From Blautia sp. Marseille-P3201T (GTDB lineage: Bacteria > Bacillota > Clostridia > Lachnospirales > Lachnospiraceae): DNA of 64,000 bases. How positions within the stretch are numbered: the stretch's first letter is position 1; every line of letters starts with the position of its first letter. Both the position numbers and the translations under genes were made by a program. The notes beneath the pieces were generated by a model, which had not been told where the DNA came from, ran no database searches, and saw nothing but the letters and a program-made list of their open reading frames with translations. This document shows positions 1,787 to 4,218 of this stretch, piece after piece. The DNA is taken from assembly GCF_900120295.1 (NCBI RefSeq), contig NZ_LT635470.1, positions 434,001-498,000 of the forward strand, given 5' to 3'.

Positions 1787-2293
1787 ATGGAAGATTTATT
1801 GCAAGTGGGCGTAATTACCACTACACATGGAATCAGAGGAGAAGTAAAGGTTTTTCCTACCACAGATGATGCACATAGATTTGATTATTTACAAAGTGTA
1901 CTTTTAGATACAGGGAAAGAGCTGTGTGAGCTTGATATAGAGAGAGTAAAATATTTTAAACAGTATGTTATTTTAAAATTTAAAGACGTAGATAACATCA
2001 ATGATATTGAGCCATATAAAGGAAAAAGTCTGTATGTGACAAGAGAGTTTGCAGTGCCTTTAAAAGAAAATGAATATTATATTGCAGATTTAATTGATAT
2101 GGAAGTATATCTGGAAAATGGTGAATATTTTGGAACATTAATGGATGTTATGGAAACAGGAGCCAATGATGTTTATGTGGTTCACATTGAAAGCGGCAAA
2201 GAAGTTTTAATACCGGCAATTAAGGACTGCATTAAAAAGGTTGATGTAGAAAACGGAAAAATGGTCATTCACCTTTTAAAAGGTCTGTGCTAG
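1787..2293 (+). CDS. rimM: Ribosome maturation factor RimM
   Basis: 30S assembly factor that binds S19 during 16S rRNA head maturation. 168 residues, normal length. The N-terminal RimM domain carries [22 protein letters not shown]. The C-terminal PRC-barrel half includes [12 protein letters not shown] and the end motif [14 protein letters not shown]. The start follows a GGAGATA site. Ten bases separate it from trmD, and the rimM-trmD pairing is nearly universal. Confidence 0.97.
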
Positions 2294-2303
2294 GAGGAGA
2301 AAA

Positions 2304-3740
2304 ATGGATTTTCATGTACTTACGCTGTTTCCTGAAATGGTGGAAAATACAGTTCAGACCAGTATTACAGGCAGAGCGGTGAAAAACGGAAAAATATCCC
2401 TTCATACGGTAAATATCAGAGATTTTTCAGATAACAAACATTCTCGTGTAGATGATTATCCGTATGGAGGCGGCGCAGGAATGGTTATACAGGCAGAACC
2501 GGTGTATCAGGCATATCAGTCTGTAAAAAAGCAGACTGTGAAACCTCGATGTATTTATCTTACACCACAGGGTAAAGTTTTTAATCAGACTATGGCAGAA
2601 GAGTTTGCATTGGAAGAGGAACTGGTTTTTCTCTGTGGACATTATGAAGGAATTGATGAAAGAGTTTTAGAGGAAATTGTGACAGATTATGTTTCTATTG
2701 GAGACTATGTACTCACCGGAGGGGAATTGGCCGCCTGCGTTATGATTGATGCAATTTCCAGATTTGTGCCGGGTGTTTTAAACAATGAAGAGTCTTCTCA
2801 GTTTGAGTCTATACAGGATAATTTGTTAGAATATCCTCATTACACCAGACCGGAGAGCTGGAGAGGAAAAGATGTACCAGCTGTATTGTTGACAGGTGAT
2901 CATACGAAAATCGAGGCATGGAGACTGCAGGAGTCTTATAAAAGAACGCAGGAAAGACGCCCTGATTTAAGAGCAAAAAATCGTCCGGTAACAGCAGCTT
3001 ATTTCAGTCCGACAGAGGGGACAAAAAAAGCAGCAGAACTATTGGCAGGTTGTTTGACACAAAATCCGCAATACATTGACCTGACAAGACGCAAGCTTCG
3101 CAGAGAAAAAAGAGAGTTTTCCAGTCAGGAATTGCTCATTGCAGCGGCGCCGGTATATGGAGGACAGCTTCCGTCTTTGGAGGATACGCTGTTTTCAAAT
3201 TTAAAAGGAAATCAAACACCTTGCGTTATCATGGCTGCTTATGGAAACAGACATTATGACGATACCCTCTCTCAGATGAAAAAAATCTTAGAGGAAAGAG
3301 GCTTTGTTTGCATTGGAGCCATTGCGCCGATTATTCCTCATATTTATGCAGATAAATTAGGTGCGGGAAGACCAGATGAAACAGATGAAATGATATTTAA
3401 AAAGTTTGCGGTTTTGGTTAAGAAACGTATAGAAGATGGAGAAAAAACTGGTTTTTCTTCCATTGATGTTCCGGGAAATCCTGTACCGGATAAAAAAGAA
3501 ATGAAACCTGTTCAAAAATATTTTGATAAAGAGAAGTGTACAGGCTGTCAGGTATGCGTGCAAAAATGCCCGGTATATGCAATTTCAAAGGATACGCTGG
3601 AAATTGACGAAAAGAAATGTATTTCCTGTATGCGCTGTGCTGTGCTTTGTAAAAGAGGTGCGAGAACTTACGATGCATCAAAAGTAAAAGCGCATTTAGA
3701 AGAAAAATTTTCAACACCAAGAGAGGTGGAATTTTTCTAA
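2304..3740 (+). CDS. trmD: tRNA (guanine-N1)-methyltransferase TrmD fused to a flavodoxin/2x[4Fe-4S] ferredoxin domain
   Basis: Residues 1-222 are a complete TrmD, the SAM-dependent knot methyltransferase that makes m1G37 in tRNA: YPYGGGAGM, LCGHYEGIDER (111-120) and YVSIGDYVLTGGELA are intact, and it ends in the usual RTQERRPDL. The frame then runs on without a stop. Residues 228-385 look like a flavodoxin-type FMN fold (AAYFSPTEGTKKAAELL, then APVYGGQLP and AAYGNRHYDD), followed by two [4Fe-4S] motifs, C412/C415/C418/C422 and C439/C442/C445/C449. This second half resembles the stand-alone EFR1-type flavodoxin-ferredoxin proteins of clostridia. TrmD alone is normally about 240 residues. The methyltransferase call is certain; the role of the redox half is unknown. 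Confidence 0.93.
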   Translation: MDFHVLTLFPEMVENTVQTSITGRAVKNGKISLHTVNIRDFSDNKHSRVDDYPYGGGAGMVIQAEPVYQAYQSVKKQTVKPRCIYLTPQGKVFNQTMAEEFALEEELVFLCGHYEGIDERVLEEIVTDYVSIGDYVLTGGELAACVMIDAISRFVPGVLNNEESSQFESIQDNLLEYPHYTRPESWRGKDVPAVLLTGDHTKIEAWRLQESYKRTQERRPDLRAKNRPVTAAYFSPTEGTKKAAELLAGCLTQNPQYIDLTRRKLRREKREFSSQELLIAAAPVYGGQLPSLEDTLFSNLKGNQTPCVIMAAYGNRHYDDTLSQMKKILEERGFVCIGAIAPIIPHIYADKLGAGRPDETDEMIFKKFAVLVKKRIEDGEKTGFSSIDVPGNPVPDKKEMKPVQKYFDKEKCTGCQVCVQKCPVYAISKDTLEIDEKKCISCMRCAVLCKRGARTYDASKVKAHLEEKFSTPREVEFF

Positions 3741-3870: not shown

Positions 3871-4218
3871 ATGAACGAAATTATTAAAAACATTGAAGCT
3901 GCTCAGATGAAAGCAGAAGCACCAGAATTCAACGTAGGAGATACTGTAAGAGTTCACGGAAAAATCAAAGAAGGTAACCGTGAAAGAATTCAGATTTTCG
4001 AAGGTGTTGTATTAAAGAAACAGGGTGGAAGCAACCGTGAAACATTCACAGTTAGAAAAAATTCTAACGGAATTGGTGTTGAAAAAACATGGCCATTACA
4101 CTCCCCTAACGTAGAAAAAGTAGAAGTTATCAGACGTGGTAAAGTAAGACGTGCAAAACTGAACTACTTAAGACAGCGTGTAGGTAAAGCAGCGAAAGTA
4201 AAAGAGTTAGTAAAATAA
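3871..4218 (+). CDS. rplS: 50S ribosomal protein L19
   Basis: Large-subunit protein at the 30S/50S interface, 115 residues, normal length. [20 protein letters not shown] and the tail [25 protein letters not shown] are diagnostic. The start follows AAAGGAG. It has its own consensus promoter and ends before a strong terminator, so it closes the ribosomal operon. Confidence 0.98.

Follow-up and report, generated by a model that had tools for sequence, protein, structure and literature searches.

A trmD gene extended in frame by an EFR1-like module

The window, by which we mean the whole 64,000-nucleotide stretch of DNA that was analysed, contains a row of genes that we take, from their order and sequence, to be ffh, rpsP, a KH-domain gene, rimM, a trmD fusion gene, rplS, lepB, ylqF and rnhB. 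The fusion gene, here called trmD-EFR1, lies on the forward strand at 2304..3740 as a single open frame of 478 codons plus stop, and its ATG is found 5 bases 3' of a ribosome-binding site, AGGAGGA (2292..2298, +). The upstream neighbour at 1787..2293 (+) is presumably rimM and the downstream neighbour at 3871..4218 (+) presumably rplS, names assigned from the ORF list, the sequences and the homologous gene order in relatives. An earlier, sequence-only reading had reported that TrmD (residues 1-222) runs without interruption into a second module while keeping its place between rimM and rplS, and both the frame and the two neighbours are as it described.

The TrmD domain (residues 1-222; 2304..2969, +) is complete and ends in RRPDL. 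More specifically, residues 1-222 score 317 bits against the TrmD equivalog model NF000648 of NCBIfam (cut-off 220), the fused protein scores 211.2 bits against Pfam tRNA_m1G_MT, and TrmD entries of the PDB match over residues 3-222. The window's own genome holds one TrmD match at E <= 1e-60. Where E. coli TrmD reads ATEDSF, the window's TrmD reads SQFESI, with Glu in place of the Asp that we take to be Asp169; the TrmD of PDB entry 8byh likewise has Glu at this position.

The junction is tight, as had been proposed: the module begins about five residues past the end of the TrmD match, and residues 223-227, RAKNR (2970..2984, +), stand where TrmD usually has a short tail. ATG, GTG and TTG codons are all missing from the frame at residues 205-246, which leaves the junction in the window's genome without an ordinary start codon for the module. 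The next in-frame TTG is residue 247, already inside the domain, and an internal start that would yield the module as a separate product is unsupported in this genome. A Met follows RRPDL in 5 of the 21 full fusions described below, so an internal start could be used there.

The appended module combines a flavodoxin-like domain (residues ~228-398, 2985..3497, +; approximate limits) with two cysteine motifs of the form CxxCxxCxxxC. Three segments of the domain are putative FMN loops, a role that we assume from flavodoxins: the putative FMN-phosphate loop FSPTEGT (residues 234-240, 3003..3023, +), PVYGGQLP (residues 283-290, 3150..3173, +) and AYGNRHYDD (residues 312-320, 3237..3263, +). The [4Fe-4S] motifs span C412-C422 (3537..3569, +) and C439-C449 (3618..3650, +), at the positions claimed for them earlier, and Pfam Fer4 matches the fused protein with 47.5 bits. 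All five of these cofactor motifs are present in 21/21 full fusions, the loops as FSPTxGT, PVY[GA]GQLP and AYGNR, and the two cysteine motifs follow the flavodoxin-like part in every case.

Against the EFR1 family ferrodoxin model NF038196, the module scores 70.9-71.9 bits over residues 233-460, below the cut-off of 75, which is passed by 6 of the 20 fused modules listed (76.8-84.5 bits). Because of this score, we class the window's module, on sequence grounds, as a diverged EFR1 relative and not as a curated NF038196 member. Comparison of the full modules with EFR1 proteins that are encoded free of TrmD gives an hhalign E of 2.4e-71, and the window's module is 33-37% identical to five such free forms. 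Direct matches to Pfam flavodoxin families fall below cut-off, both for the fused domain (Flavodoxin_5, E 0.064, 14 bits against a cut-off of 27) and for the free EFR1 paralogue of the same genome (Flavodoxin_1, E 0.0011), and in a PDB sequence search of the module the best 60 of 291 hits matched the ferredoxin end and its approach alone. Given these weak direct matches, the flavodoxin-like label offered by the sequence-only reading leans on EFR1 homology and on the conserved loop motifs.

Distribution and descent of the fusion

A search of relatives revealed a fusion that is clade-wide and in a single frame, in agreement with the earlier claim. It is stop-free in 20/20 genomes of the window's genus (in G015 the match spans residues 2-468 only), and one genome of another genus, G135, carries a full-length stop-free fusion that is 68% identical over residues 1-478. 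A stop codon between the two halves is absent from all of these, and the identical frame in 21 genomes of two genera rules out a sequencing or frame error. In a scan of 299 genomes from 298 genera of the family, the full-length form was found, among the matches listed, only in the window's genus (two genomes) and in G135; the matches listed reach down to about E 4e-95, ten genomes had no match, and weaker fusions may escape such a scan.

In 131 genomes from other families of the order (121 matched at 1e-60), no stop-free match extends beyond residue 252. The match that reaches residue 252, in G448, continues into an ACT-like extension that is not this module, and a match to residue 255 in G053 crosses two stops and is no stop-free fusion. 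Outside the order (123 genomes, 116 matched at 1e-40), all matches past residue 250 contain stops. Module profiles compared with 12 extensions from fourteen long or odd frames outside the order gave a best E of 0.0015, and the best of these extensions, L131 with L133, reached an hhalign probability of 15.8 only. Phage records yielded 21 matches, none at 80% query coverage, and the ten listed end by residue 230.

A second group of TrmDs, eight in number, extends into 131-190 residues that have neither the FMN-loop motifs nor a ferredoxin part, and we refer to them as degenerate fusions. Seven come from the family scan (G100, G313, G160, G123, G300, G029 and G271) and the eighth, L032, from [Eubacterium] cellulosolvens, whose genus may coincide with one of the seven scan genera. 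Since the matches listed in the scan stop at about E 4e-95, degenerate fusions number at least eight. The first FMN loop and CxxCxxC are found in 0/8 of them and the other two loops are not retained. Aligned by hhalign, the degenerate extensions match the full modules with E 9.7e-19 (reversed-alignment control, E 0.33) and the free EFR1 proteins with E 1.9e-11 (reversed-alignment control, 0.06), and a control with unrelated GNAT extensions gave E 0.5. On these profile comparisons we regard the degenerate extensions as homologous to the flavodoxin-like part. Loss of the cofactor motifs would by parsimony be the derived state, the simpler history because free EFR1 proteins possess both parts.

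The surroundings of the fused genes were compared in the same two groups. Among five other full-fusion loci inspected, four (L031, L095, L103 and L105) have rimM upstream and rplS downstream, and at L104 (G005) rplS and the genes beyond it were not found within about 5 kb downstream. All eight degenerate-fusion loci have rplS downstream, and 7/8 have ffh-rpsP-KH-rimM upstream, this row not being found within 5 kb at L102. The genomic place between rimM and rplS is therefore usual rather than universal. At L101 (G029) rplS starts about 2.7 kb past the TrmD domain, and the link between trmD and rplS is loosened in some fused lineages (L101, L104).

A free EFR1 gene directly downstream of trmD, as a precursor of the fusion, was not found by tblastn of the module against L001-L074 with their short flanks. 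Besides the full fusions, this search recovered only three loci, L032, L050 and L051, each of them a degenerate fusion. The remaining degenerate fusions escaped it, as a diverged downstream neighbour could too.

In a tree of the TrmD domain (76 rows, after 11 duplicates, L031, L095-L101 and L103-L105, were dropped; L102 is a long branch), the 21 full and 8 degenerate fusions form one clade with support of 99/94.8, recovered in 399 of the first 400 bootstrap trees (of 1000). The degenerate fusions form a clade of their own (100/98.4). Monophyly of the full fusions appears in 1 of 400 bootstrap trees, and enforcing this grouping is not rejected (AU p 0.576). No plain TrmD falls inside the fused clade in this tree, which was limited to the initial loci and the loci of better-scoring genomes. 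In a tree of the module, a single branch (99/99) splits the 21 full fusions from 22 free forms, and long branches leave the nearest free relative unsure.

The window's module is not the only domain that follows TrmD in the class. Three loci from two other families outside the order (L122, L123, L124) have one TrmD frame running into about 400 residues, which match Pfam aminotransferase class V (PF00266) with 266.6 bits in L122 and 239.3 bits in L124, and by eye in L123; by eye this extension is cysteine-desulfurase-like, a second case in which TrmD may be fused to a protein of sulfur or Fe-S chemistry. Seven loci (L022, L027, L055, L106, L107, L115, L116) have a C-terminal extension of 237-267 residues whose end is a GNAT-like domain (by Pfam in L027, by eye in the others), and the first five of these are scattered across the TrmD tree. 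GNAT-like extensions were further found in L132 (by Pfam) and in L112 and L130 (by eye). A single TrmD frame runs into a nitroreductase in L111 and into an HD domain in L118, and L127 and L128 have a low-complexity insert followed by a C-terminal tyrosine-phosphatase-like domain (Y_phosphatase3, 186.2 bits in L127; by eye in L128). Four loci of family f43 (L125, L126, L131, L133) have 137-290 extra residues of no clear family: Pfam gave one sub-cut-off match for L133 and none for L125, and by hhalign these extensions are unrelated to the EFR1-like module. In L113 and L114, from one family, the TrmD frame leads into a small domain that by eye is ACT-type-like, either as a fusion or as a translational overlap. 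TrmD tolerates C-terminal additions.

The basic segment and the role of the appended domain

The flavodoxin-like domain of the fusions contains a fusion-specific basic segment, DLTRRKLRREKREF (residues 259-272, 3078..3119, +), which is predicted to sit after the second strand of the domain. The mean net charge of the aligned segment is +4.9 in full fusions (n = 21, 3 to 7) and likewise +4.9 in degenerate fusions (n = 8, 4 to 6), compared with -0.85 in free EFR1 forms (n = 20, -2 to 2). This distinctiveness is confined to the segment, since the module as a whole is no more basic than the free forms (mean charge +8.0 in full fusions, +0.6 in degenerate fusions and +9.9 in free forms). In a conservation scan over 14 alignment columns at a time, the segment ranks 1 of 125 between full and degenerate fusions, a rank that is descriptive because the segment had been spotted by eye beforehand and that comes from eight mutually related degenerate sequences. 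Between full fusions and free forms it ranks 124 of 157, and the AYGNRHYDD region ranks first.

The ten pairs for which rates were calculated also show purifying selection on the module. In these pairs, chosen from 210 possible, dN/dS is 0.013-0.049 for the TrmD domain, 0.065-0.211 for the flavodoxin-like part, 0.030-0.229 for the ferredoxin part and, where defined, 0.094-0.550 for the last 22 residues, all of these values being rough, with several dS values above 1.

Fusion by itself says little about a functional link. Our argument is built on the basic segment and on the sister lineage, by which we mean the clade of degenerate fusions. That the sister lineage kept the domain and lost its cofactor parts suggests that the added domain also serves TrmD itself. 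The same observation argues against a redox role, as had been proposed from the sequence, that is obligatory for TrmD, since eight fused relatives retain the domain and the basic segment although their cofactor motifs are gone.

A role that depends on redox or iron state can nevertheless be formulated for the full fusions. The state of the FMN or of the Fe-S clusters would alter how the domain meets tRNA or the TrmD dimer and would thereby tune m1G37 and frame maintenance; the module would act as the sensor, the basic segment would set tRNA binding and m1G37, and the sister lineage would have lost the sensor but not the docking surface. In favor of such gating, the cofactor motifs are retained in 21/21 full fusions, and the basic segment comes after the second strand, at what we take to be the FMN-holding edge of a flavodoxin. 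However, eight fused relatives manage without the cofactor motifs, and the chemistry of TrmD requires no redox step. We consider gating of this kind unlikely.

The conserved motifs could also mean that the module is an independent carrier that became attached to TrmD when a stop codon was lost and is kept because it still works as one, with no meaning in the link. The TrmD C-terminus in the class takes domains as diverse as GNAT, HD, nitroreductase, aminotransferase class V and tyrosine phosphatase, and with such unrelated partners, tRNA binding need not be what a fused domain is for. Chance fixation, which the sequence-only reading had offered beside redox-responsive translation fidelity, gains from these partners and loses from the five motifs kept in 21/21 full fusions and the purifying selection in ten pairs. 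If the module were a mere passenger, it would moreover be unexplained that the sister lineage, its cofactor motifs gone, still has the domain attached to TrmD and conserves the basic segment best of all, and that 20 free forms are without this segment. Nor is replacement of a lost free carrier obvious, as free EFR1 scores over the cut-off in at least 15 of the 20 genomes of the genus. We regard an accidental link as rather unlikely. From the earlier interpretation, then, the clade-wide single-frame fusion stands, and neither redox-responsive fidelity nor chance fixation is established.

The free EFR1 gene of the window's own genome is 36% identical to the module and lies near rnfC and rnfD, with one opposite-strand gene between. 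This setting fits a low-potential electron-transfer role and is no proof of it. The corresponding region, L075 448-5696, holds the paralogue near rnfC, rnfD and a gene with a sub-cut-off match to PplA (FMN lipoprotein). In G005 the free EFR1 gene has a different setting, and by eye no constant partner was found among the neighbours of five free EFR1 genes.

If the fused module still carries electrons, its client might be another tRNA-modifying enzyme that acts near position 37. We assume that flavodoxins and ferredoxins feed radical-SAM enzymes, and MiaB is present in the window's own genome. MiaB and TrmD act, to our understanding, on different tRNAs, and MiaB was detected in 38/39 tested genomes regardless of fusion type, a pattern that does not discriminate and that led us to drop it as a client. 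A precedent comes from yeast, where Tyw1, which has a flavodoxin-like FMN domain, acts in the pathway from m1G to wyosine according to the portion of PMC7761594 consulted here. A wyosine link was likewise rejected, a family search with Wyosine_form giving no match in the own genome and positive results in three archaeal controls. Delivery of electrons to a second enzyme at the tRNA appears very unlikely.

In the reading that we prefer, the appended domain probably does something for TrmD that requires no cofactor, the simplest option being an added surface that contacts tRNA or TrmD, and in the window's genus it is probably a conserved carrier as well. The C-terminal domain of TrmD helps to bind the anticodon branch of tRNA, according to the part of PMC9508554 available. 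As the module starts about five residues past the end of the TrmD match, it would likely lie near the bound tRNA. The fusion would then be one protein in which TrmD presumably methylates G37 of tRNA and carries a captured EFR1-type C-terminus, flavodoxin-like domain and 2[4Fe-4S] ferredoxin together. A single capture would have taken place in the ancestor of the window's genus and several others. The flavodoxin-like domain with its basic segment would have taken on a job independent of cofactors, as an extra tRNA-contacting or TrmD-stabilising surface placed beside the C-terminal domain that holds the anticodon branch. In the genus and in G135 the domain would have stayed a redox carrier, presumably loaded with FMN and two [4Fe-4S] clusters, and in the sister lineage, if the direction of loss is as parsimony has it, the carrier part would have decayed and the surface remained. 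The recruited surface would account for the sister lineage, and the carrier for the cofactor motifs kept in the genus. Taken as a whole (single EFR1 capture, basic surface for TrmD, carrier kept in the genus and G135 and decayed in the sister lineage), this account is offered tentatively, with slightly less than an even chance of being right in every part.

Significance and relation to known systems

The system is valuable mainly because it offers two lineages, one with and one without the cofactor motifs, so that what the appended domain does can be put to a direct test. Nature supplies the control here: in the sister lineage the domain fused to TrmD has persisted longer than its cofactor motifs. 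Together the two lineages allow a clear test of whether evolution can turn a fold for electron transfer into a domain that binds RNA, and of whether a cell can couple tRNA methylation to its redox or iron state. If TrmD were gated by redox or iron, maintenance of the reading frame would follow redox state. The m1G37 made by TrmD prevents +1 frameshifts, and TrmD is studied as a drug target, as stated in the part of PMC12751012 consulted.

The sequence-only reading knew of no description of this fusion, and a search of the open-licence literature, screened mostly by listing, likewise found no published account of a TrmD-flavodoxin/ferredoxin fusion, which does not prove that none exists. The fusion is real and conserved, the sequences found form one clade, and it is apparently undescribed in the literature searched; domain fusions of SPOUT enzymes as such are already known. 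By the portion of PMC1829167 at hand, SPOUT enzymes often bear fused domains, and tandem SPOUT fusions of TrmD with COG4752 occur in Desulfovibrio and relatives.

Compared with ordinary TrmD (tRNA (guanosine(37)-N1)-methyltransferase, SPOUT), the fusion has the complete domain, a score above the equivalog cut-off and the usual rimM-rplS place, and it differs in that a module of about 250 residues replaces the short tail after RRPDL. As in the EFR1 family NF038196, a flavodoxin-like part comes first and two [4Fe-4S] motifs follow; unlike free EFR1, it is fused to TrmD and has the basic segment that is missing from the 20 free forms compared. The EFR1 layout has been described for C. difficile CD3121, a protein left out of the experiments of that paper as far as the accessible part of PMC10913485 goes. 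The TrmD-COG4752 proteins resemble the fusion in joining a TrmD-type domain to another large domain, and differ, as far as they are covered in that source, in that the partner is a second SPOUT domain and there is no redox module. Yeast Tyw1 is similar in that an enzyme concerned with tRNA position 37 bears a fused flavodoxin-like domain; as presented in the portion of PMC7761594 cited above, Tyw1 joins a flavodoxin-like FMN domain to a radical-SAM domain on the way from m1G37 to wyosine, and is thus a different enzyme with a different chemistry from the TrmD fusion.
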